A DNA stretch of 64,000 nt, taken from NCBI GenBank assembly GCA_003141855.1, contig PLNS01000012.1, forward strand, positions 117,057 to 181,056, written 5' to 3'. A program made the position numbers and the translations under genes. The notes below the pieces were generated by a model. It ran no database searches and was not told the DNA's origin. It saw only the letters and a program-made list of their open reading frames with translations. This DNA is from Candidatus Bathyarchaeota archaeon. Lineage in GTDB: Archaea; Thermoproteota; Bathyarchaeia; Bathyarchaeales; Bathycorpusculaceae. This document shows positions 4,453-45,308 of this stretch, piece by piece; position 1 is the stretch's first letter, and every line of letters begins with the position of its first letter.

Positions 4453-4926
4453 CTTTTCCAGTAGAAGTGTAGGGGTGCCTTGTTCACTTGTAAAAGACAG
4501 GAAAAGGGTAATTTATCAGAAAAGGGGCTTGATAAAGCAACAACTTCGGTGCTATTTCACATGTATTCACAATTTTGTGAACCAATAATAGGAAATCTTG
4601 GGTTAGAAAAAATTGAAAATAAACTTCCTTAAGAAATCAAGAAGGCCACGGTTAAAACAAACATACCACCACTGTTACTAAGCTAATTTACCATGGAAAA
4701 ACCGCTTGCACAGGCACCCCTATGTTTCCTCTCGAAGTATTTGGGACAAAAAGAAGTCAGGAGAGGCTGAAAAAATATTTGCAGAATGTTTGTCTAAAAT
4801 CTTGGATAGCAATTATTAATATATGAAAATGCTTCTTACCTATCAGAGTATATATCTATATATAATTAATATAGTGATTTTCTTTATAGCAAGCTTTTTT
4901 CTCCAGTAGAAACTCTGGGGTGTGTC
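4453..4926. other. oriC: Candidate chromosomal replication origin (three ORB-like elements and an AT-rich region)
   Basis: ORB-like CCAGTAGAAGTGTAGGGGTGCC (4458-4479,+), AGGCACCCCTATGTTTCCTCTCGAAG (4712-4737, reverse), CTCCAGTAGAAACTCTGGGGTGTGTC (4901-4926,+); AT-rich about 4790-4890; next to orc1/cdc6. Confidence 0.8.
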
Positions 4927-5070
4927 TGCTCTTGCTTTGTTTGGTTGTTATAGGCTGTTTTCATTGTTTTTTAGGATTCTTGTGTTCTAAAACCAGTTTT
5001 TTGTACTATCGCCTTTATCTGTTCCACACGAAATAACGGTGTTACCTCTGAAGAGTGAGAGGGATGGCTA

Positions 5071-6312
5071 ATGGGGAATCCAAGCATACTAGATGATGTA
5101 TTCGAAAATTTCGTTAACGGTGTTAAATTGTTTAAAGACCGAGAGGTCCTAAGGCATGATTATCTTCCGGAGAAACTGCCGCACCGTGAAGACCAGATTC
5201 GTTTGTTAGGTGTGACTGTTGCTCCAGTCTTGAAAGGTGCAAGGTGCTCCAACATTTTCATTTATGGAAAGACTGGAACTGGAAAAACTGCCGTAACAAA
5301 GTATGTTTTGAGCCATTTAGAGTCTAAGGCAAAAGAATATGGGGCACAAGTAAAATTCTGCTACATTAATTGCCGAATGGCTGGTTCAGAATACAGGGTG
5401 TTCGCAGGTCTTAGTCAAAGTGTTGGTTTATCTATACCCTTCACTGGCCTGTCGGTGGGAGAAGTTTTCGACAGGTTCCGAGCAGGATTAGATGCATCCA
5501 GAATAATTTTCATAATTGTCTTGGATGAGGTTGATGCCTTGATTAAAGAACGCGGCGACGCTTTCATGTATGAACTAACAAGGATAAATGAAACATTAAC
5601 CAAAAGCAAGGTTGCCCTAATCGGCATATCCAACGACCTGCGCCTAAAAGAGTTCTTGGACCCACGGGTCTTTAGTTCACTCAGTGAAGAAGAACTCGTC
5701 TTCAGGCCATACGATGCAGGGGAACTTCGAAACATATTGCTTGAACGGTCAAAATTATCCTTCCAAGATGGCGTTCTATCGGATTCGGCGCTGAGCATTT
5801 GCTCGGCTTTGGCTGCTGCAGAGCATGGGGATGCTAGGCGAGCTTTGGATTTGTTGCGTGTTGCTGGAGAAGTGGCTGAGCGACTGGGTGCAAAAACGAT
5901 TACTGAAGAGCATGTGCGCCAGGCTGAGAAGCACATTGAGCATAACCGAGTTGTTGAAGCCCTCAATAACTTAACGTTGCATTCAAAGTTGGTGTTGTTG
6001 AGTGTTTACCATTTAAACAGGTCAAGCGCAACGACAGGCGAAATATACGATATTTACAATGAGTTGTGCGGTGAAATGGGCGCTGGGCTTTTAACGCAGC
6101 GTCGTTTAGGCACTTTGGTTAATGAGCTTGATTCGATGGGTCTTGTGAACGCAAAGGTTGTGAGCATGGGACGATACGGCAGAACCAAAAAGATCAGGTT
6201 GGAAATTTCGCGGAGCCTAATTAAAGATGTCTTTAAGGAAGATAACCGCTTTAGCCGATTGATTGAGTACTCCCCCCAAGTTTCCCGTAAAAACTCAAGT
6301 GGCAGCGCCTAA
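5071..6312 (+). CDS. cdc6: Orc1/Cdc6 replication initiator
   Basis: Walker A IYGKTGTGKTAVTKYV, Walker B FIIVLDEVDAL, sensor motifs, C-terminal wHTH. Confidence 0.95.
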   Translation: MGNPSILDDVFENFVNGVKLFKDREVLRHDYLPEKLPHREDQIRLLGVTVAPVLKGARCSNIFIYGKTGTGKTAVTKYVLSHLESKAKEYGAQVKFCYINCRMAGSEYRVFAGLSQSVGLSIPFTGLSVGEVFDRFRAGLDASRIIFIIVLDEVDALIKERGDAFMYELTRINETLTKSKVALIGISNDLRLKEFLDPRVFSSLSEEELVFRPYDAGELRNILLERSKLSFQDGVLSDSALSICSALAAAEHGDARRALDLLRVAGEVAERLGAKTITEEHVRQAEKHIEHNRVVEALNNLTLHSKLVLLSVYHLNRSSATTGEIYDIYNELCGEMGAGLLTQRRLGTLVNELDSMGLVNAKVVSMGRYGRTKKIRLEISRSLIKDVFKEDNRFSRLIEYSPQVSRKNSSGSA

Positions 6313-6313
6313 A

Positions 6314-7888
6314 TTAGTTAAACGATAGAACGGTGGTATGCAGTGTTTGCAGGTTCACCACTGGAACTTTTCCCGGTGTAGGAACCAACCCTAATTTTTC
6401 CATGTAATCAGTTTGTTCTTGCCAACCGCCCGAATTAACCACGAGTACTCCACGATAATTACAGTACCCTATCACGTGTATGTGACCCGCATGGAAAATG
6501 TCTGGTACCCTGTCCACGACTAGGTAGTCTCTGTTTTCTGGGGATAGCATGGTTTTTCCGCCGTAGACTGGTGCTAAATGGCGACTTTGCATAAGTAGTC
6601 GCATTGCTTTCTCCGGATGGTCATGGTCCATTCCTGGTATAACAGCGATTATGTCGTCTAGGCTTCGGCCATGGTACATGAGAATTTCCACGCCATGGAG
6701 GCTTAGTAGGCACGGGCTTCCGACTGAGTGGATGTTCTTTTTTCCTTTGATTGCCGTCAAGTAACCTTCGGGTATGGCTGGTTGGGGTAACGATTTGCGC
6801 GTGGCATCATGGTTTCCGGGAGAGAGGAATATTTCAATATAATCTGGAATCTTTTCCAGGTACTTGGCGGCAAAGTTGTACTGTTTGTGGACGTCCCGTA
6901 TGGTTAGTTCATTTTGTTGGTTGGGGTAGATTCCGACGCCGTCAACGATGTCTCCAGCGACTAGTAAGTATTTTACTCGGCTCGCTATATCCCGCATTTC
7001 TTGGTTTCCGTATTTGCCCATTAGCCAGAGTATGAAGCGTTTGAAGGATTCTTTCTGGAACTTTGTGCTGCCGATGTGGATGTCTGATGTGAGGACTGCG
7101 TAGACTGGTTCTTGGGCTCTCTGCGGCTGCTTTCTGCCTATCTCTGGAAAGATAATGTCTTCCACCATGAAAAGGTCGGTTCGTGTCTTGATTACCGCTA
7201 GGCAGATTACTTGGTCAGGCAAAAGCATGAGAGCTTTCTTTTTGACTTCTTCGGGCGCCTTCTGTGGCACCAGCACGGTTGCGCTTCCCTGCAAGTCCTC
7301 GACTGAGAGTATGGTGTGGTTCTTTGAATCCCGCTTCTCAGTTAGCATGCAGATTATCTTCAGTTTTGTTTTCGGTGGAGACTTGAGCGCTTCTAAGATT
7401 GGGGTTGCTCCTTTAACGTCGATTCTCTGTCTAAACAAATGTTCAATGCGTTTGAAGCGATCTTGGAAGTAGAATAGGTACTCCTCGAGTGTTCCGTTAG
7501 AGCTCAACTTGCCGGTGGCGTCTTCGAGGATTTTGATGTCTGCTTGTATGTCTCTGGCGTAGGGATAAAACTCGGTTTCAACCGTTTGCTGCTCTATAGA
7601 TGATTGTGGTAAATTTGGTGTTTCTGGAGCGATTTGTGGCTCTGGCACCTGCGTTTCTGGGGGGGATATTTTTGGCTGCTGTAGCAATGATTCCAAAAAG
7701 TCCCTCTCTATAAACATCGGCTTGTCCTGCAGTGTCTGGATTCTCTCGAGCGCCAGACTCATGATACTGACAGGGTCGTTGGTTTCGCTGTTTTGGATAA
7801 GGAACTCGAACGCTTCGCTGTTCAGTTGGTATCCTGCCGCGATTGTTGCTTCGATTGCCCTTTGGAGTTTTTCTTTTGTGCTCATCAA
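6314..7888 (-). CDS. DNA polymerase D small subunit (DP1)
   Basis: Calcineurin-like motifs: SDIHIGS, LVAGDIVDGVG, SPGNHDATR, GHIHVIG; N-terminal linker typical of DP1. Confidence 0.93.
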   Translation of the reverse strand: MMSTKEKLQRAIEATIAAGYQLNSEAFEFLIQNSETNDPVSIMSLALERIQTLQDKPMFIERDFLESLLQQPKISPPETQVPEPQIAPETPNLPQSSIEQQTVETEFYPYARDIQADIKILEDATGKLSSNGTLEEYLFYFQDRFKRIEHLFRQRIDVKGATPILEALKSPPKTKLKIICMLTEKRDSKNHTILSVEDLQGSATVLVPQKAPEEVKKKALMLLPDQVICLAVIKTRTDLFMVEDIIFPEIGRKQPQRAQEPVYAVLTSDIHIGSTKFQKESFKRFILWLMGKYGNQEMRDIASRVKYLLVAGDIVDGVGIYPNQQNELTIRDVHKQYNFAAKYLEKIPDYIEIFLSPGNHDATRKSLPQPAIPEGYLTAIKGKKNIHSVGSPCLLSLHGVEILMYHGRSLDDIIAVIPGMDHDHPEKAMRLLMQSRHLAPVYGGKTMLSPENRDYLVVDRVPDIFHAGHIHVIGYCNYRGVLVVNSGGWQEQTDYMEKLGLVPTPGKVPVVNLQTLHTTVLSFN

Positions 7889-8117
7889 GTTCCTGTGCCA
7901 AGCCCATGGTTAGTTATGGTTTTTTATGTTAGGCAGTTATGCTCTTGAGTTATTTACTGTTTTTTGTTTGCGCGGTGTTTTTTGAAGAAAGGGTTCCGAT
8001 AGATAGTTTTGGGTTGAATATGGACTTGTTAGTTTTGTGAACATTTGCTTGATTGTATTTTTAACATTAAGTTATTCCAACTTGATTCAATATATATAAG
8101 CGACCCATAGTTTAGAT

Positions 8118-9116
8118 ATGTTATATCTTGCTGGGGGTACCTCTGTGAGTGAATTAAGAAAAGTTCAGCAAACGCCAACCGGCACCTTCTTTGTTTGTGT
8201 GCCTCGAGATTGGGCTCAGAAAAATGGCTTAAAAAAAGGCGCTTTGGTAAATTTAGATATGACAAGCGACGGTAAGCTTCTAGTTGACCCTAAATATGAC
8301 GTTGAGCCACAACCTAAAGTTGCTACTTTAGGGGTCGGTCCTTTTTTAGGTCGGGAAATTGTTGGTCGTTATCTTCTTGGCTATGACACGATCAATATTG
8401 AAGCAAAGGAGCGAATAGACCCTGACATTAGAAACATAGTTAAGTCGACTGCTAGTTCACTGGCAGGTTTAGAGATTGTTGAGGAAACCTCTTCAAAGAT
8501 TTCACTGCAAAGTTTGTTGCAACCATCCGGGTTTTTACCTCAAAAAATTTTACAGAGAAATTATGCCTTGGTAGCAGGGATGGTTCGGGATGTCTCTAAC
8601 TCGTTTATTAATGGCGACTTGCAGTTAGCCAAAAGCGTTGTCGCCAGAGACAACGAGAGTAACAGGCTGTATTTCTTGCTGGTCAGGATATTGCGCACTA
8701 TTATCCAGAATCCAAGGTTGAGCGAGAAGCTTGGAATTACCCCGATAGAATGCTTGGACTACCGTTTGGCTGCAAGCTTAATCGAAGGTATAGGTGACGC
8801 ATGCGTTCAAGTGGCTTCAAGTACCATAGCGCTCAATGGAACCAAATTATCTGATGAACTGCGCAAACTGCTGTTTGAGTTGCAGTCTGCTTGTTGCGAG
8901 GCTAATGAGCAAGCGCTCAAATCCTTCTTAACCAAAGACATCTCACTTGCTGAGAATGTTCGTAACCTGCGGGGAAAAATCGAAGCAACCTACTCAAACG
9001 TTGAGTGCGTTGCAAAAGCTTCTTCTGTTGATTTGATGCCTCAGATTTTGGCAGCGGTGTCTTTTCTTAGGCAGATTTACGAGCGAAGCGTAGACATGGC
9101 TGACCTAGTCGTATAA
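8118..9116 (+). CDS. AbrB/SpoVT-like plus PhoU domain protein (phosphate uptake regulator family)
   Basis: N-terminal VQQTPTGTFFVCVPRDWAQKNGLKKGALVNLD (swapped-hairpin AbrB); C-terminal PhoU-like helical bundle. Confidence 0.85.
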   Translation: MLYLAGGTSVSELRKVQQTPTGTFFVCVPRDWAQKNGLKKGALVNLDMTSDGKLLVDPKYDVEPQPKVATLGVGPFLGREIVGRYLLGYDTINIEAKERIDPDIRNIVKSTASSLAGLEIVEETSSKISLQSLLQPSGFLPQKILQRNYALVAGMVRDVSNSFINGDLQLAKSVVARDNESNRLYFLLVRILRTIIQNPRLSEKLGITPIECLDYRLAASLIEGIGDACVQVASSTIALNGTKLSDELRKLLFELQSACCEANEQALKSFLTKDISLAENVRNLRGKIEATYSNVECVAKASSVDLMPQILAAVSFLRQIYERSVDMADLVV

Positions 9117-9159
9117 TCCCTCTTTTACTTTTTAACATCTTATTGGCTGCTGGAAACAT

Positions 9160-9281
9160 CAATACCGACCTACCCCTCTTAGTGATTCCCATTCCTAACG
9201 TGTGTTTGGTTTGGCAAAGAGCCAATATCGACCTACCCCCTATAGGTTTCTGCAACGATTGACTATTAGGATCCAAATAGG
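9160..9281 (+). repeat. Dispersed intergenic repeat, two tandem units
   Basis: CAATACCGACCTACCCC (9160) and CAATATCGACCTACCCC (9223); the 52-bp core 9230-9281 aligns without gaps to 27825-27876 and 45182-45233. Confidence 0.85.
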
Positions 9282-9332
9282 TTGGTAAAGGGTTAAATTT
9301 CTAAGTTCACATTCACATCAGGGATAACTCAC

Positions 9333-9956
9333 ATGCCAACTATTACTGATAAGGTGGCGAATGCTCTTTACTTGTCTGGATGTTTGAAGTTTGGCTCGTT
9401 CAAAATCAAGTCTGGAGCAACAAGCCCCTACTACATCGACCTTGCACGCGTCCTCTCCGCGCCACAGCAACTCTGCATCATAGCCGAGGTCGCTGCTGAA
9501 AAAATTACTCAGATAATGGCTGCTGACCGAATAGACAAGTTAGCCTCCATCGAGCTCAAGGGCGCCTTAATCGTGCCTAGCATCGCATGCAAACTAAACC
9601 TGCCCTGCGTGATTGTCCGAAAAGAAGAGAAAGCCTACGGTGTTACAGGCAGAATCGCGGGCGCGGACGTAGCCAAAGGCGACAACATACTCTTCTTCGA
9701 CGACGTCATAAGCGAAGGCTTATCCAAAGTCGAAGGCATAAAACCCCTCCAAGAACTAGGCGCTAACGTCAAACACCTGTTGGTCGTGGTAAACCGTGAG
9801 CACGGTGGCAAAGAAAAACTAGAAAAACTTGGCTACCAAGTTCATGCCTTGGCAAAGATTTCAGAAATAGTTGACTCACTCTATCGGGAGAAGCATATCT
9901 CTAAGGAGCAGGCTGACAAAGTCTTAGATTACGTTAAAAACTTTCAATCTGCCTGA
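9333..9956 (+). CDS. pyrE: Orotate phosphoribosyltransferase
   Basis: FGSFKIKSGATSPYYIDLARVL; PRPP motif NILFFDDVISEGLSK. Confidence 0.93.
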   Translation: MPTITDKVANALYLSGCLKFGSFKIKSGATSPYYIDLARVLSAPQQLCIIAEVAAEKITQIMAADRIDKLASIELKGALIVPSIACKLNLPCVIVRKEEKAYGVTGRIAGADVAKGDNILFFDDVISEGLSKVEGIKPLQELGANVKHLLVVVNREHGGKEKLEKLGYQVHALAKISEIVDSLYREKHISKEQADKVLDYVKNFQSA

Positions 9957-10095
9957 CATACCAAGCTACGATTTTTTCAGCGCCACTAATAGAATAACCA
10001 CTATCCAAGAGTGCCTTTCTTAAGTTATTTGGGTTGTCAGTTTCCACTTTTAATCCCCAAAACCCTTTCGATAAGTCGCATATAAAGTTAACCAA
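9934..10095 (-). CDS. Unannotated small ORF, 53 aa, hypothetical
   Basis: Hand translation: (TTG)VNFICDLSKGFWGLKVETDNPNNLRKALLDSGYSISGAEKIVAWYVRQIESF*; overlaps the pyrE 3' end antisense. Confidence 0.45.
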   Translation of the reverse strand: MVNFICDLSKGFWGLKVETDNPNNLRKALLDSGYSISGAEKIVAWYVRQIESF

Positions 10096-10194
10096 ACATC
10101 AAAAACAAGCCAAACCAAATCTACCCTTCAAAAAGAACCTCTATGTTTATTGCCTGCAAATTCACAAGATTATACCTCTAAAGGAAGGACTCAA

Positions 10195-11205
10195 ATGCAA
10201 ACCCAAAAGCAAATTGTAGACTCCCTGCTCACGCCAGAAGTGTACCCCCAAGACCCTGGCAAAATCGAACTTATCCAAACTCACATATCTTTTGTCTTCC
10301 TAACCAAAAATTACGTTTACAAAGTAAAAAAAGCCGTAAACTTCGGATTCCTCGACTTTTCTACGCTTGAGAAAAGGCGTGTTTTCTGCGAGAAAGAGTT
10401 GGAACTCAACAGGCGGCTCTGTCCAGACATTTACCTCGAAGTCGTCTCCATCAACAAATCATCAAACAACATCATGATAAAGGGCAGCGGCGAAACAGTT
10501 GAATACGCCTTAAAGATGAAGCGGCTGCCGCAAGAAAGAATCATGACAGTGCTCCTAAAAGAGAACAAAGTGGATAAAAAAACAATCGACGAGATAGCAG
10601 GGATAGTTGCTCAATTCCACTTAAACGCACAAACAAGCCCTGAAATAAGCACGTTCGGTTCGCTGAAAATAATAAAGACTAACTGGGACGAAAACTATTC
10701 CCAAACCATAAAATACCTCAACCAAACAATCCCGCAAACAGAATTTCAATTCATCCAAACAAAAATCAACAATTTCATGGAGAAAAACACTGCTCTTTTT
10801 GAAAGCCGAATAGCCGACAAACACATCAGAGACTGCCACGGCGACCTTCATTCCGGGAACATCTTCATAACTGATAAAATCTGCATTTTCGACGCCATAG
10901 AATTCAACGACCGTTTTAGATACTCTGATGTCGCCGCGGATGTTGCCTTCTTAGCCATGGACCTTGATTTCCAACAGAGACCTGACCTCGCAAACTACTT
11001 CATAGAGCGGTACATAGTTTACTCTAGGGACCAACAGTTAACTCAGCTTCTTGCATTCTACAAGTGCTACAGGGCCTATGTGCGCGGTAAAGTAATCAGC
11101 TTCAAACTCGACGACCCAAACATAACCAGCGCTGAAAAAGAGTCTGCAACCAAAGAAGCGCAAGCATACTTTAAACTAGCTGCCGAATATACAAAAAGCC
11201 TCTAA
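10195..11205 (+). CDS. Aminoglycoside phosphotransferase-like kinase (COG2187-like)
   Basis: FLTKNYVYKVKKAVNFGFLDFSTLEKRRVFCEKELELNRRL; HGDLHSGNIF catalytic loop, DAIEFNDRFRYSD; likely ATG at 10195 after AAAGGAAGG. Confidence 0.88.
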   Translation: MQTQKQIVDSLLTPEVYPQDPGKIELIQTHISFVFLTKNYVYKVKKAVNFGFLDFSTLEKRRVFCEKELELNRRLCPDIYLEVVSINKSSNNIMIKGSGETVEYALKMKRLPQERIMTVLLKENKVDKKTIDEIAGIVAQFHLNAQTSPEISTFGSLKIIKTNWDENYSQTIKYLNQTIPQTEFQFIQTKINNFMEKNTALFESRIADKHIRDCHGDLHSGNIFITDKICIFDAIEFNDRFRYSDVAADVAFLAMDLDFQQRPDLANYFIERYIVYSRDQQLTQLLAFYKCYRAYVRGKVISFKLDDPNITSAEKESATKEAQAYFKLAAEYTKSL

Positions 11206-11217
11206 CACTTTTTCTTT

Positions 11218-12084
11218 CTAAGCGAATTGGTTAGCTACCCAATCTGGAATCTGAACTGTTCCCATCACGATTGGTTTTTGGTGGCAGTCGCTGCCCCCAG
11301 TCATAATTAACCCGTGCTCCTTTGCGAACGCTATGTAATGGTTTGTTGTTTCTGGGGTGTTTCTGGAGTGCCAGCATTCAACGCCATCGACGTAAGGTAG
11401 CATTTTTTCTTTTATGATTTCTGTTTGCTCAACAAGCGATTTAGTCAATGATACCATAGAGGTTCCGTGAGGGTCGTTTGGGTGCGCCAGCACCAATTTT
11501 CCGCCCGCGCCCCTGACAAGTTTCGATGCCTCTTCCAAATGGAGTGGAAACTTTGGGACGTCGCATTTTACGAGGTATTTGTCGAAGGCTTCTTGGCGGG
11601 TTTTAACAATTCCTTTCTTAACTATGTAATCGGCTATGTGGGGTCTGCCGAGCACGCCGTCCACGGACTCTTCAATCCTCGCCAAATCCTCCTTGGTGAG
11701 GGCTGCAATGTTTTCTTTTTGGAATTCAGTGTTGAGGTTGTCAAGGATTTTAGCCGCCCTCTCCTCCCTGTATTTAGCCATTATCTCCAGTTTGCTCTCC
11801 AACAGCTTGTTGCCTGCGTCGAATTGGTAGCCCAAGAAATCCAGCGAAACAGCTTTGCCCCCCTGAAACTTGGGGTGGGAAAAAGTCACGTTCAACTCGA
11901 CGCCCGTGATGTATCTGATGCCCGCTGTTTTTGCTAATGCTATTGCTTTGGTTTGGCAACTGATGGAATCATGGTCTGTAATCGATAAGAAGTCGATGTT
12001 TCTGGTTTTGGCTTCTTTTATAAGATCTGCAACAGACAATTTTCCGTCTGAACTTTTCGAGTGGATATGTAAATCAATTTTCAT
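11218..12084 (-). CDS. PHP-domain metal-dependent phosphoesterase
   Basis: MKIDLHIHSKSSDGKLSV, SITDHDS, HPNDPHG, GGSDCH. Confidence 0.92.
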   Translation of the reverse strand: MKIDLHIHSKSSDGKLSVADLIKEAKTRNIDFLSITDHDSISCQTKAIALAKTAGIRYITGVELNVTFSHPKFQGGKAVSLDFLGYQFDAGNKLLESKLEIMAKYREERAAKILDNLNTEFQKENIAALTKEDLARIEESVDGVLGRPHIADYIVKKGIVKTRQEAFDKYLVKCDVPKFPLHLEEASKLVRGAGGKLVLAHPNDPHGTSMVSLTKSLVEQTEIIKEKMLPYVDGVECWHSRNTPETTNHYIAFAKEHGLIMTGGSDCHQKPIVMGTVQIPDWVANQFA

Positions 12085-12094
12085 CTTATGCTCG

Positions 12095-12700
12095 TTACCT
12101 TTTCTCCACTCCGACTACGGACCAAAGGTCGGTTTCGTCGTGACATGTATCAACGGTCAAATGAGTCACTTTGAGTTTCGGATATTTTTTCTTCAAGTCC
12201 TCTAGGTCAACGGGTTCGAACTTGTTCTTGTTGGCAAGATATGCTTCTTCCGTTAGGGCGTTTGACTCATACTTTTCTTTAGTTCGCCTCTTAATCCTGG
12301 CGATAGACACTTCTTGGGGACAACTGGTTTGCAGGATAACGAAAGTCATGTTGTTTTTTGCCGCTATCTCAGCTGCGCGCCTACGAAGCTCCTGAGTAAC
12401 AAAGGTAGCGTCCAAGATTAAGCCGCCCTTACTCTTACCCGCAAGGTCGTCTGCACGTCGAAACAATTCATCATAGACTGATAATCGCTTGTTCATGTTT
12501 CCAGCAACTTTCGCGTCAAAAATATCCTCATTCTTGAGGACTTCCAGCCGAATCAAGTCGCTGCGAAGGATAGGGTAACCTTTGATTTTGGAAACTTGCT
12601 CTGAAGTTTCTGTTTTGTAACTTGCTGGCAACCCGCATGTTATCAGTAGTGTTCTTGGGTCTAATTCTGTTTTGATAAACGAGGCAAAAGGTTCCTTCAT
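12095..12700 (-). CDS. P-loop kinase (COG0645-like predicted kinase)
   Basis: TLLITCGLPASYKTETSE P-loop, LRSDLIRLEV, GLILDATF; likely start at Met 12700. Confidence 0.85.
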   Translation of the reverse strand: MKEPFASFIKTELDPRTLLITCGLPASYKTETSEQVSKIKGYPILRSDLIRLEVLKNEDIFDAKVAGNMNKRLSVYDELFRRADDLAGKSKGGLILDATFVTQELRRRAAEIAAKNNMTFVILQTSCPQEVSIARIKRRTKEKYESNALTEEAYLANKNKFEPVDLEDLKKKYPKLKVTHLTVDTCHDETDLWSVVGVEKR

Positions 12701-12829
12701 TTGTATCCTCTCACAAGTAGGTCTGGACATTGGATAATTAAACTTTTTCGAGCAACAACTGCGGCTTTTGCGTATTGGTGAAGCAAATTCTAAATAGGTA
12801 GAGTACACAAATGTTCCTAAAAAGAAGGA

Positions 12830-14092
12830 ATGTTCATGGAAGAATTCCAAGTTAAAGATAAAAATTTAGCACCGCAAGGTCACTTACAGATCGAGTGGGC
12901 ATCAAAACACATGCCCGTACTAAACCTAATCAAAACCAGATTTACAAAAGAAAAACCCCTAAAAGGCTTAACCTTAGCCGCATGCCTCCACGTAACCAAA
13001 GAAACCGCAGTTCTAGTGCAAGCATTAACCGAGGGAGGCGCCAAAGTTGCAGTTTGTGGTTCTAACCCGCTCTCAACCCAAGACGACGTCGCCGCCGCCT
13101 TAGCCGACAGTGGCGTTCACGTTTTTGCATGGAGAGGACAGAACACTGAAGATTACTACAAGTGCATCGACAAAGTCTTAGATTACAAGCCATCCATAAC
13201 CCTTGACGATGGCGCAGACCTAGTCGGCACCTTACACAGCAAACGCTCCTCAGAAATAAAGAACCTCAAAGGCGGAACAGAAGAAACCACCACAGGCGTA
13301 ATCCGCCTAAGAGCTATGGAGCGAGACGGTAGCCTCAAATACCCCATCGTAGCCGTAAACGACGCCTACACCAAGTACCTCTTCGACAACCGCTACGGAA
13401 CAGGACAAAGCACCATCGACGGCATCCTAAGAGCTACAAACACGCTTTTAGCAGGCAAAAACTTCGTCGTCGGCGGATACGGCTGGTGCTCAAGAGGCAT
13501 AGCTATGCGCGCGCAAGGCTTAGGCGCCAACGTCATAGTAACAGAAGTTCAACCAATCCGCGCCTTAGAAGCGGTAATGAACGGTTTACGCGTAATGACC
13601 ATGGCTGATGCAGCCCCAATAGGCGATATTTTCGTTACAGCCACAGGAGACATAAGCGTCATACGCAAAGAACACATGCAAAAAATGAAAGACGGCGCCA
13701 TAATGGCAAACAGTGGCCACTTCAACGTAGAAATAAACATCAATGATTTGGACTCGCTGTCAACAGGAAAAAGAACCATGCGCCCCAACCTAGAAGAGTA
13801 CGCATTAAAAGACGGCAGAAAACTCTACCTCTTAGCCGAAGGCAGACTTGTCAATTTAGCCGCAGCAGAAGGGCACCCCTCCGAAGTCATGGACATGTCC
13901 TTTGCAAACCAAGCCCTATGCTCCGAATACATAGCCAAAACAGCCAAGCTGCAAACCAAAGTCTACACTGTTCCAAAGGAACTTGATGAGAAAGTCGCTG
14001 AGTTGAAACTGAAAACTATGGGCATTGCAATCGATGAGCTTACCGCTGAACAGAAAAAGTACCTTTCAACTTGGGAAATGGGCACTACCTAA
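12830..14092 (+). CDS. ahcY: S-adenosylhomocysteine hydrolase
   Basis: [85 protein letters not shown]. Confidence 0.97.
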
Positions 14093-20331: not shown

Positions 20332-20385
20332 AAAAACCCTGATGCCTTTAGGGTACTTTAAATCATTAGTGCTCAAGCGTTTCTT

Positions 20386-20700
20386 CTAAAGGGCGGCGAT
20401 TATAACTGCGATTATGCCGCTTAAGAAAACTCCATCAAACGTGCCTGCGCCGCCTATGCTTGCGACGGGTGCACCGAGTTTGGTTATTCTGTGGAGGTTA
20501 AGAAGGTCCGCTCCTATCAGTGTTCCAAGCACGCCTGAAACGTAAGCTATTGCCAAAGGTGCGCCTGGAGCAAGAACGATAGCTGTTATGGCTGCGACTA
20601 TCGGCGGGATGAATGCTGGCCCCGCCACGGCGGCTAATATAAGAAAAAGTATGACAAAGAAAGAATAATTATGCGGATAATACACCGATTTTCCACCCAT
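20386..20700 (-). CDS. DUF1614-like membrane protein
   Basis: LLNLHRITKLGAPVASIGGAGTFDGVFLSGIIAVIIAAL signature. Confidence 0.8.
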   Translation of the reverse strand: MGGKSVYYPHNYSFFVILFLILAAVAGPAFIPPIVAAITAIVLAPGAPLAIAYVSGVLGTLIGADLLNLHRITKLGAPVASIGGAGTFDGVFLSGIIAVIIAAL

Positions 20701-20702
20701 CG

Positions 20703-20855
20703 TTACACCTCAACTTCTAAACAGCGCTTGAAGATAGCGCCGTTATTTTTTGCAATTTCTGTTTCGGTTTTGCGTCCATCGGCTAATAATTCTTTTAGGA
20801 TTTTTGCTTGGACTGCGGTAACTTGCTCGGTTAAGACTGATACCCTCTGAGTCAT
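20703..20855 (-). CDS. Unannotated 50-aa small ORF directly upstream of the DUF1614-like gene
   Basis: Hand translation MTQRVSVLTEQVTAVQAKILKELLADGRKTETEIAKNNGAIFKRCLEVEV*; stop lies 2 nt before the ATG of the next gene. Confidence 0.5.
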   Translation of the reverse strand: MTQRVSVLTEQVTAVQAKILKELLADGRKTETEIAKNNGAIFKRCLEVEV

Positions 20856-21071
20856 GATATTTTTTCATTATAATTAATTAATCGTGTATTTAGCATTTAC
20901 TTATTGAACTGTCTTATTCCCAAAGACAATAAATGTAGATATTATAGCCTTTTTCTACCAAAAAAAGCAAAATTATCTAATAATAGGTAAAGTTTTGGAA
21001 AAATTTATATGCTCAAACGCCAAATTAGGCTACAAGATAACCAAATTCAATAAATTGGCTATTCTTTAAAA

Positions 21072-23651
21072 ATGAAAGGAAATAAAAAGAAAATGAAAAC
21101 AAATAAAATATTCGCAATGTTGATAATATTGGCTTTTGCAGTTTCAATCATACCTATGACACAAGTTAAAGCACAGACAGCACCTACAGTGAAAACTTAC
21201 CCCGTCGGCGATGTTGTACCCAATCCAACAGGTGTTGGGCAGCAAGTTTTGGTAAAATTCGGAATTTTACAGCAGGCAGGCTCCGTAAACTTTGGATGGA
21301 CACGTTTGACAGTAACTGTCGTTAAACCTGATGGCACAACAGAAACACTCGGGCCATTCAATACAGACTCAACAGGCTCATCCGGTACGCTTTATACACC
21401 TACACAAGTTGGCAACTACACGTTTACGACACACTTCCCTCAACAAACAAACCCTGTAGATTACTTCAACATGGAAGGAGGTAACATGATCTTGGCAGGT
21501 ACTGTACTCCTAGCGAGCACTAGCGACCCATACGTACTTACTGTAACAAACGAACCCCGCCCAATCAGATCTGGCGTTGCACTTCCAACTGAATACTGGA
21601 GTCGTCCGATTGATGCACAGCTCAGGGAATGGTACTCAATCTCAGGAAACTGGGTTGGTGTACCTGACCAGAATAATAATTATTGGGTAAGCAATGCACT
21701 CTATAACGACTATGCCCCAGAATCAGCCCACGTACTATGGGCAAACCAATTGACTACTGGAGGACTATCCGGAGGCCTATGGGGCGACGGTCAAGTACCA
21801 GCAGCCTCTGAATCAGGCGACGCATACGAAGGCAAATTCCCTGGCTCAATAATATTGAACGGAGTCCTCTATTACATGAGAACAGATCCAGGTACCCAGA
21901 GCACCCTCTTTGCAGTAGATTTACACACTGGAAAAACACTGTGGACTAGTAACGACATTTCGCTATCGTTTGGTCAAATCTTTTACTTCAACAGTTACAA
22001 CGTTGACGGTATATACACTTATCTCTGGCAAGAAACAAGTACTATGAATCCAGATTTCAGCTCTAACACAACTTACACAGCATTCGACCCCTTCGATGGC
22101 AATCAGCAGATGCAGATCAAAAACGTACCTTCAGGCGTTAGAGCATATGGTCCAAGCGGCGAAATCCTCATCTACCAAATAGACTACGCTAATAAATGGA
22201 TGGCTCTTTGGAACTCAACTGATTGCGGACTTCAGAATGCAGTTATTGGCACTCCTGACTATGGCAGTTGGGGTAACACAGCTCACGGAACAGCATTGGG
22301 ACCAGGATTAGATGGCGCAAACCCGAGATGCTACTCATGGAACGTATCAATCCCCGCAGGATTAATAGCTGGCACTTCATTCTTCGCACCAATATTGAAG
22401 GTTTACCCAGACAGAGTAATGTCCATGGACTTCAATGCAACACAAGTCAGAGTATGGGCATTAAGTACAGCACTAGGCTCGAGAGGAACATTACTATTCG
22501 ACAAAACATGGCAAGCACCAGCTGAATGGCTAGCAGGCACTAATACTTTGAACTATGTTGGCGCAACCAGCGAAGTTAAAAACGGTGTTATCGCACTATG
22601 GGACAAAGAACTAAGGACACACTACGCGTTTAGTACAGAAACCGGAAACTATCTATGGGCAACTGCTCCTGAAGCTTGGCAAGACGCTTACGGATGGGGC
22701 AATGCAGAGCACACTTGGTACTTTGCCTACGGTAAACTCTATTCAGTTGGCATTGGCGGTATAGTCTATGCTTATGATCTAGCGACAGGAAAAACAACGT
22801 GGACCTATACAATGTCGGATCCATACAACGAACCGGTAACTGGCAACAACTGGTGGGGCTGGATAGATCTGATTGTGGATGGCAAAATATATGTCGGCTC
22901 ACTTGAGCACTCAGCTGAGAATCCAGTACCGCGAGGTGCACCATACATCTGCATCAACGCAACCGATGGCAGTGAAATCTGGCGCGTCAACGGTATGTTC
23001 CGTGAAACCCGATGGGGTGGCAACGGAATCATCGGCGACAGCATCATAACTACCATGGACACCTATGACCAACGCATATACGCAATAGGCAAAGGGCCTA
23101 CCGCTATCACAGTTGATGCACCTAACATTGGGGTTCCATCAGGCAATAGCTTAGTGATACGAGGCACAGTCACCGACACTTCCCCAGGAACAAACGACAA
23201 CTCTATGAAAACTCGGTTCCCCAACGGCGTACCAGCGGTATCTGACGAAAGCCAAAGCGAATGGATGCTATACATATACAAGCAATTCGAACGCCCATCC
23301 AACGCAACCGGTGTACCAGTCATAATCGATGTGATCGATGCTAACGGCAACTCCAGAAACATCGGCGCAACAATAAGCGACTCCAACGGAGCCTACAGCT
23401 TTAGTTGGATGCCTGACATTCCAGGAAAATACTCAGTCTTCGTTACCTTCACCGGCTCTAAAGCTTACTATGGATCCTCCGCTGAAAGCGCCTTCGTCGT
23501 CGACTCAGCACCAGACGCAACCGTAGCACCTACAGAACATCCAGCATCAATGGCTGATCAGTACTTCCTGCCACTATCGATCGGTATGATATTGGCGATA
23601 CTCGTAATCGGCGCAATCCTTGCACTGCTGCTACTCAGGAAACGACCATAA
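21072..23651 (+). CDS. Secreted PQQ-like beta-propeller protein with C-terminal TM anchor
   Basis: N-terminal signal peptide (IFAMLIILAFAVSIIPMTQVKAQ), repeats such as LFAVDLHTGKTLW and VYAYDLATGKTTWTY, C-terminal TM ending LLLLRKRP. Confidence 0.85.
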   Translation: MKGNKKKMKTNKIFAMLIILAFAVSIIPMTQVKAQTAPTVKTYPVGDVVPNPTGVGQQVLVKFGILQQAGSVNFGWTRLTVTVVKPDGTTETLGPFNTDSTGSSGTLYTPTQVGNYTFTTHFPQQTNPVDYFNMEGGNMILAGTVLLASTSDPYVLTVTNEPRPIRSGVALPTEYWSRPIDAQLREWYSISGNWVGVPDQNNNYWVSNALYNDYAPESAHVLWANQLTTGGLSGGLWGDGQVPAASESGDAYEGKFPGSIILNGVLYYMRTDPGTQSTLFAVDLHTGKTLWTSNDISLSFGQIFYFNSYNVDGIYTYLWQETSTMNPDFSSNTTYTAFDPFDGNQQMQIKNVPSGVRAYGPSGEILIYQIDYANKWMALWNSTDCGLQNAVIGTPDYGSWGNTAHGTALGPGLDGANPRCYSWNVSIPAGLIAGTSFFAPILKVYPDRVMSMDFNATQVRVWALSTALGSRGTLLFDKTWQAPAEWLAGTNTLNYVGATSEVKNGVIALWDKELRTHYAFSTETGNYLWATAPEAWQDAYGWGNAEHTWYFAYGKLYSVGIGGIVYAYDLATGKTTWTYTMSDPYNEPVTGNNWWGWIDLIVDGKIYVGSLEHSAENPVPRGAPYICINATDGSEIWRVNGMFRETRWGGNGIIGDSIITTMDTYDQRIYAIGKGPTAITVDAPNIGVPSGNSLVIRGTVTDTSPGTNDNSMKTRFPNGVPAVSDESQSEWMLYIYKQFERPSNATGVPVIIDVIDANGNSRNIGATISDSNGAYSFSWMPDIPGKYSVFVTFTGSKAYYGSSAESAFVVDSAPDATVAPTEHPASMADQYFLPLSIGMILAILVIGAILALLLLRKRP

Positions 23652-23871
23652 AAACAAACAGAAAAAATAATTCCTCCCCTTTTTTAGTCTTTAAATCGAT
23701 GAGAAAAATATGGGGCTGAGTAGGCTCTCGCAAATATTCACTACATAATAGCATAGTTTAAGAAGCGTTTTTGCATTTTCGCTCTTCTTCCTTAAGTTTA
23801 GTCCAGAGCCTCAGCAAACCCTACTATTCTAAACTTCTTAACCAGTTATTTCATCGCAAATTAATTTGATT

Positions 23872-23995
23872 TGGCGCCGGGGAAGGGATTCGAACCCCTG
23901 CGAGCACGAAGCCCACTAGCTAACTTGCCTTTTAGGCTTTAGCCCTCTTTTGTTAGATCTCGAGGCTAGCGCGATAACCACTCCGCCACCCCGGC
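23872..23995 (-). tRNA. tRNA-Ser(CGA) with 37-nt intron at 37/38 and encoded CCA
   Basis: GCCGGGG/CCCCGGC acceptor, CTAGC/GCTAG anticodon stem, loop CUCGAG-intron-A, intron 23922-23958, long variable arm, AGGGG TTCGAAT CCCTT T-arm, GCCA end. Confidence 0.92.
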
Positions 23996-24090
23996 TCCAG
24001 CCTAAACATTTGCAGTTGTGGCTAAAAGAGTTTTCAGTGTCATATGCAGTTATTGGCTAAGTTTTCACGCGCGTGGGTTTGCATTTTTCT

Positions 24091-24127
24091 GCTTTAAATA
24101 AGGGGGTATAGCCAAGTGAGACACTAT
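24091..24127 (-). repeat. Degenerate copy of dispersed intergenic element
   Basis: RC CAATAGTGTCTCACTTGGCTATACCCCCTTATTTAAAGC resembles CAATAGTGACCTACCCCCTATAGG...; shares GCTTTAAATAAGGGGG with 60182. Confidence 0.45.
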
Positions 24128-24373
24128 TGTCCCACGTAGCCTAATTTAGACTGAAAAAGGCGAAAAAAGCCCTAAATTCCATTTCCAATAGGTCAGCGAA
24201 TTTTGTTTTCATATGTTGCAAACGATAGCTAACCCAAAAAGCGCTCTTAGCAACAGGAAGCAACTAGAAATCGTCAATTCGTTTTTTCAACAGATTGCAC
24301 ATGCTTTTGCGTTTTTGATGGCAACGTTTATAACTTAATCTACTATTTGCTAAAGGCGCGAAGCGGAAGTACT

Positions 24374-27666: not shown

Positions 27667-27763
27667 ACCAGTCTTTTCTTTATTTTCTTCTTTGTTTTGT
27701 TGATGCTTTCGTATACAGAAGATTATGCTTAATTTTTTAATGTGTTATTGACTTAGAAAACGA

Positions 27764-27876
27764 CATTACCGATCTACCCTCTTAGGGATTCCAACAGGCT
27801 TTGGCTTGAAAAAACGTCAATAGTGACCTACCCCCTATAGGTTTCTGCAACGTATTACTAATAGGCTCCAAATATG
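27764..27876 (+). repeat. Dispersed intergenic repeat, two tandem units
   Basis: CATTACCGATCTACCCTCTTAGGGATTCC plus CAATAGTGACCTACCCCCTATAGGTTTCTGCAACG...; core 27825-27876. Confidence 0.85.
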
Positions 27877-27987
27877 TTCGCAATCTTGTTAGCAATAGAA
27901 CATTAAGCGGCATTGGAATTTTTTAAGATCTTCTATTCTTGCGTCAATTTAGTAAAGTGTTAATAGGGCATTCTGGATTAGTTTCTA

Positions 27988-45122: not shown

Positions 45123-45181
45123 TTGGTGATTTGTGGGTTTCTTGACTTAACATACTAATGGCTCCATTTTCCGTCATCACA

Positions 45182-45233
45182 GACCTACCCCCTATAGGTT
45201 TGTGCATACTATTTCTATTAGGCTCCAAATATG
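45182..45233 (+). repeat. Dispersed intergenic repeat, single unit
   Basis: GACCTACCCCCTATAGGTTTGTGCATACTATTTCTATTAGGCTCCAAATATG; 52 bp aligned without gaps to 9230 and 27825. Confidence 0.85.
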
Positions 45234-45308
45234 CCAAAAAAATTCAGAGGAACTGCTGTAAGCCATTTCTATTAAACTTTAAAATAAAGAAAAAAATTGG
45301 TTTGCGGT

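Follow-up and report, generated by a model that had tools for sequence, protein, structure and literature searches.

A modular non-coding repeat family of Bathyarchaeia that coincides with synteny breakpoints

The DNA window analyzed here, a stretch of 64,000 nucleotides from a Candidatus Bathyarchaeota contig, carries three copies of a short repeat, with cores at 9230–9281 (copy A), 27825–27876 (copy B) and 45182–45233 (copy C), all on the + strand, just as an earlier note on this sequence had described them. The 25-mer GACCTACCCCCTATAGGTTTNTGCA is present exactly in all three copies and in 0 of 100 shuffles, and among direct repeats in the window this family ranks first (84 nt, with identities to copy A of 81% and 62%). 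In copy A the main element, which consists of two modules termed A and B, spans 9195–9289 on + (profile match C1:126251-126345, E 2.9e-22), with the box at the module junction located at about 9232–9246. Upstream of it lies an optional 5′ A unit at 9130–9182 on + (profile match G000:C1:126186-126238, model positions 2–54, and sequence), whose half-unit ends in CCTACCCCTCTTAG. The half-unit CAATACCGACCTACCCCTCTTAG, which begins at 9160, precedes CAATATCGACC (at 9223) by exactly 63 bp, and the earlier reading of copy A as a tandem double unit is correct, this being one among several module arrangements. A half-unit similar to this one recurs in copy B at about 27760, where a degenerate 5′ A unit, CATTACCGATCTACCCTCTTAGGGATTCC, could be read from the sequence (27756–27792, +); the main A+B element of this copy lies at 27795–27883 on + (C1:144851-144939, E 1.8e-24). 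Copy C has a main A+B element at 45147–45239 on + (C1:162203-162295, E 1.3e-21). Elsewhere in the window, 20334–24138 is a variable region in which several relatives show either a break of synteny or a large insertion; it ends near an unusually long, probably intron-containing tRNA gene at 23875–23995.

The MAG that holds the window (G000; 2.39 Mb, 30 contigs) contains far more than these three copies. A search for the 25-bp core allowing up to 3 mismatches returned 71 matches, 33 on + and 38 on −, with 0 for the reversed-pattern control. A sequence-only covariance model trained on 69 copies detected 157 units at E ≤ 0.01, or 112 sites after units within 400 bp were joined; at about 40 sites beyond the core matches, the core is diverged. 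This confirms that the repeat is real and that its extent is larger than the earlier note had it.

The information profile of core-aligned copies shows a conserved span that extends over about −36 to +59 relative to the core start, which defines an element of ~96 bp along which freely varying positions alternate with conserved blocks. Invariance of the core is partly ascertainment, as copies were selected by core; positions 33–51 (CTATTAGGCTCCAAATATG) are almost invariant though unused in selecting copies for the profile. The intervening positions 25–32 are variable. The modules A (TTTTTAACATGCTAATGGCTGCAAAAAACGCCAATAGC) and B (TTTCTGCATNGTATTTCTATTAGGCTCCAAATATG) meet in a shared box, CCTACCCCYYTWTAGG. 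An additional 5′ A unit is found in 17 of the 71 copies at a distance of 50–86 bp and an additional 3′ B unit in 9 of the 71 at a spacing of 60–61 bp, while an A+3B array occurs in the relative G024. The element thus has the modular build and variable number of tandem internal units expected of a BOX-type repeat. At the module box, positions 10–12 change as a single block from CTA to TCT, which fits the expectation for module hybrids; the hybrid blocks are located at CCTACCCC...TAGG, a placement coarser than a single base for the crossover position. The consensus ends TTTTTAACATG and AAATATGCTCGTG, read from the information-profile consensus, do not form terminal inverted repeats. A dyad considered in the A module was rejected, its pairing being weak and inconsistent.

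The 112 sites are nearly all intergenic (by simple ORF calling, one of them, L004, lies within a gene), and they occur in both orientations, whether the neighboring genes are convergent, divergent or tandem. Among the 63 sites with both neighbor genes called, the upstream and downstream genes relative to the element were opposite/same in 18 cases, same/opposite in 17, same/same in 16 and opposite/opposite in 12. An association with particular flanking genes was considered and rejected, as these appear to be ordinary cellular genes. The position just 3′ of a + gene, to which the earlier note had drawn attention, is true for the three window copies only and is a chance pattern, as genome-wide orientation is mixed. 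Its proposal of a 3′-UTR element or terminator is not supported, as copies stand amid all gene arrangements in either orientation. The suggested ACCTA...TAGGT fold of the core is possible as a pairing, but shuffled sequence folds just as well and compensatory changes are missing, with zero covarying pairs among 69 sequences. Folding z-scores ranged from −0.52 to +0.64 on either strand, and the stable stem-loop of a BOX-type repeat was not found. No Rfam 15 family matched at the element at the gathering threshold or at E ≤ 1. With z-scores near 0, no covariation and no Rfam match, the suggestion of a structured sRNA is not supported either. The absence of coding potential was borne out: the core lacks third-codon-position variation, and in the variable stretch the changes come as blocks, which argues that the element is not a peptide. 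Among the options offered earlier, a non-autonomous repeat is the one that these data support.

A separate dispersed promoter-like sequence, GACCTACCCCCTCCCTTATATAAAG, occurs at 14 places in G000 (e.g. C4:9238, C21:16784 and C27:187895; control 0). It has the CCTACCCC box in common with the element, and some of its copies stand upstream of an element while most do not. A possible resemblance to Orc1/Cdc6 origin boxes was dropped, as 112 scattered sites are unlike origins.

When one genome from each of 85,462 species was searched with the exact core, only Candidatus Bathyarchaeota records matched, and at the settings used no match was obtained in viral contigs (exact core), phages or plasmids. 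A pattern search detected matches in 17 of 120 relatives, none outside the element's own family, and a profile search gave at least one match at E ≤ 0.001 in 48 of the 120, with weak matches also outside that family. About 15 of the 120 are element-rich (at least ~33 profile matches), most others having 0–10. The repeat family is lineage-specific to Bathyarchaeia, its core being known only from Bathyarchaeota, and is patchily distributed. Copy number can contrast sharply between sisters, as for G018 (34 or more) vs G011 (3), in a pyrE tree that is poorly resolved. Each element-rich genome sampled has its own consensus across its copies. Copy A is found at the same place and in the same orientation upstream of pyrE in G022, G024 and G007; the site holds a degenerate element in G013 and G009, and the element is absent in G005, G017 and G003.

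Sites are shared among relatives. In G024, 27 flanks have a gene that borders an element in G000 as well, and for 23 of these the element lies on the same side and in the same orientation. Core identity between orthologous sites is 0.87. At positions 25–32, however, copies at orthologous sites are no closer to each other than random pairs (identity 0.44 vs 0.43, P 0.45), and copies within G000 are more alike than orthologous copies (0.58 vs 0.44, Wilcoxon P 0.04) in what is a small test of 14 pairs. This loss of ortholog resemblance suggests, from sequence comparison, that copies are homogenized within genomes, although shared selection could alternatively produce the within-genome resemblance.

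Several known repeat types invite comparison. BOX elements of Streptococcus pneumoniae are composite intergenic repeats with distinct modules and variable tandem internal units (PMC3049150). The bathyarchaeal element is like BOX in having a copy number in the region of 100 for a genome of ~2 Mb and a unit number that differs between genomes at the same site. Compared by description, it differs in having neither a predicted stem-loop nor insertion-sequence-type terminal inverted repeats, in showing no clear excess between convergent genes, and in its strong association with synteny breaks. Because the stem-loop and the terminal inverted repeats are missing, we file the element neither as BOX nor as MITE. 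It resembles MITE-type repeats in being short, non-coding, multi-copy, intergenic and patchy among related genomes, but it lacks their terminal inverted repeats and its sites are largely common to sister species. REP/BIME and Neisserial mosaic elements (NIME) likewise are dispersed short intergenic units that form mosaics. BIME units are palindromic and often inverted in arrangement, whereas units of the present element are non-palindromic and in direct order. The SegB binding sites of Sulfolobales also represent a conserved motif dispersed over an archaeal chromosome, but these are a 13-bp palindrome mostly inside genes (PMC12284271), in contrast to a non-palindromic, intergenic element of ~96 bp. 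In G024, three elements (L340, L363 and L364) have a ~150-bp insert near GGATCC with ends like CCGAG..TGTGCA / TGCACAG..CTCGG, which looks like a MITE targeting the element.

We compared the gene order of five 20-kb G000 pieces with that of five relatives (G022, G024, G013, G018 and G005). As a result, the elements were found to mark breakpoints. Over ~95 kb of G000 and the four element-bearing relatives, synteny was broken in 16 of 32 element junction-by-genome cells vs 8 of 112 at other junctions of at least 100 bp (P 2.3e-7), a count in which cells are not independent, break intervals were hand-assigned from match lists with some wide or at MAG contig ends, and one element junction (L354:18690) is based on a partial profile match. 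With G024 alone, 4 of 8 element junctions were broken vs 0 of 28 others (P 0.001), and a junction-level permutation restricted to the window gave P 0.008.

The three window copies differ in this regard. Copy A is collinear in all five relatives. At copy B, synteny is intact in G022 and in the element-free G005 and is broken at or near the element in G024, G013 and G018, the last by a 10-kb insertion. Copy C is collinear in G022 and also in G005, where the site is empty. In G024 the left block at copy C extends to 45231, and the right block, which is on another contig, begins at 45188; both positions are within the element, and A-B-B arrays are present on both products. Both products of the copy C break in G013 also bear the element, and the right flank there adjoins a gene that by eye resembles one left of the G000 element L003; in G018 a scar, AAAAACGCCTAGACCTACCC/AAATATG, is left. 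Element units were further detected on both products of the break at C8:92988 in G024. The cases with an element on both break products are copy C and E4 in G024 and copy C in G013. The G024 site L294 combines the left flank of G000 site L007 with the right flank of L019, while the L007 order is kept in G022; L296 and L313 show flank joining like that of L294. In the more distant G013 and G018, on the other hand, breaks often have no element on either product, as at sites E1 and E4, and two element junctions differ between G000 and the element-free G005 as well. In view of these breaks without elements and of the G005 differences, the coincidence may be due in part to intergenic DNA that is permissive for both breaks and elements. 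A direct suggestion of exchange between copies comes only from breaks with the element on both products and from sites that unite flanks belonging to two G000 element sites.

On contig C4 of G018 (L369/L354), an inter-element G000 block is circularly permuted, with query 8087–13561 followed by 4546–7914, as after circle excision and reinsertion; the L369 junction holds P-like modules and no element. The segments L355:4875–5009 and 2453–2579 give ~120-bp matches at many places in G024 and others, and possibly belong to another dispersed repeat family or to a coding motif that is repeated.

On balance we think it probable, though well short of assured, that this composite, non-coding, oriented, BOX-like DNA repeat family of Bathyarchaeia provides dispersed recombination substrates. 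A crossover between two copies would bring together the left-hand flank of the first site and the right-hand flank of the second and would leave an element on each product, thereby rearranging the chromosome; the two G024 breaks with an element on both products are as expected from such exchange. Exchange without crossover would homogenize copies within a genome. Recombination between dispersed copies, with conversion homogenizing them, is the most economical account, in which exchange between copies may cause the breaks, host homologous recombination may be the agent, and a putative sequence-specific protein reading the core would explain core conservation. Against this account, the copies are ~100 bp and imperfect, which is short for homologous recombination. 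The number of tyrosine recombinases was considered as a correlate of the element and rejected, as PF00589 counts with subfamilies pooled (4 in G000, 4 in G018 and 5 in G024 vs 17 and 19 in the element-free G005 and G017) do not track it.

An alternative that we regard as unlikely is that the element is an old MITE-like mobile repeat surviving where insertion is harmless, and that breaks are tolerated at the same places, giving coincidence without causation. Its intergenic, orientation-neutral placement and patchy presence agree with this, as do the element-less breaks in G013 and G018 and a G000-only copy at C8:86535, the site of which is a 46–52 bp spacer in G022, G013 and G005. Empty sites in G005, G022 and G013 were read for target-site duplication, and the flanking intergenic DNA was too diverged. 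Yet the breakpoint enrichment holds vs junctions of at least 100 bp, an element stands on both products at two G024 breaks, terminal inverted repeats are lacking, and the alternation of conserved blocks with freely varying positions is unlike a decaying passenger. That same alternation would suit a binding site for a putative lineage-specific chromosome-organizing protein, with selection keeping the core and the spaced distribution and recombination being a side effect. The 60–61 bp period of B units and the separate consensus of each genome across its copies are also in line with it, as is the spacing of sites in G000, which is more regular than in a random arrangement (CV 0.71 vs 0.94, P 0.0008), although the null for this value ignores intergenic restriction and the joining of close units. 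Absence from most congeners argues that it is not an essential housekeeping site, and we consider this reading rather improbable. We are similarly doubtful of a dedicated genome-wide recombination system in Bathyarchaeia, which would comprise about 110 oriented, spaced sites, a putative protein promoting exchange, element-bounded gene blocks moved as units, and a site sequence co-evolving with its reader. A small non-coding RNA family or 3′-UTR element is hardly credible, for although a TATA-like P module lies upstream of some copies, its distance to the element differs among copies, structure signal, covariation and Rfam match are all absent, and all gene orientations occur.

Recombination between copies thus remains our preferred reading of a repeat for which a search covering part of the literature found no description. 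To our knowledge, archaeal gene order changes fast and the causes of breakage are mostly unknown. The coincidence with synteny breakpoints and the suggested within-genome homogenization go beyond the single-sequence view of the earlier note, and they make the element a mark in the sequence by which breakpoints are predicted in an uncultured lineage, a relation that public genomes allow one to check. Should a specific protein act on the element, it would represent a new chromosome-level system; otherwise there remains a repeat family, hitherto undescribed, that will confuse assembly, promoter and terminator calls in Bathyarchaeota. Taken together, the element has the look of a modular repeat, not described before, by which genome order is shaped.
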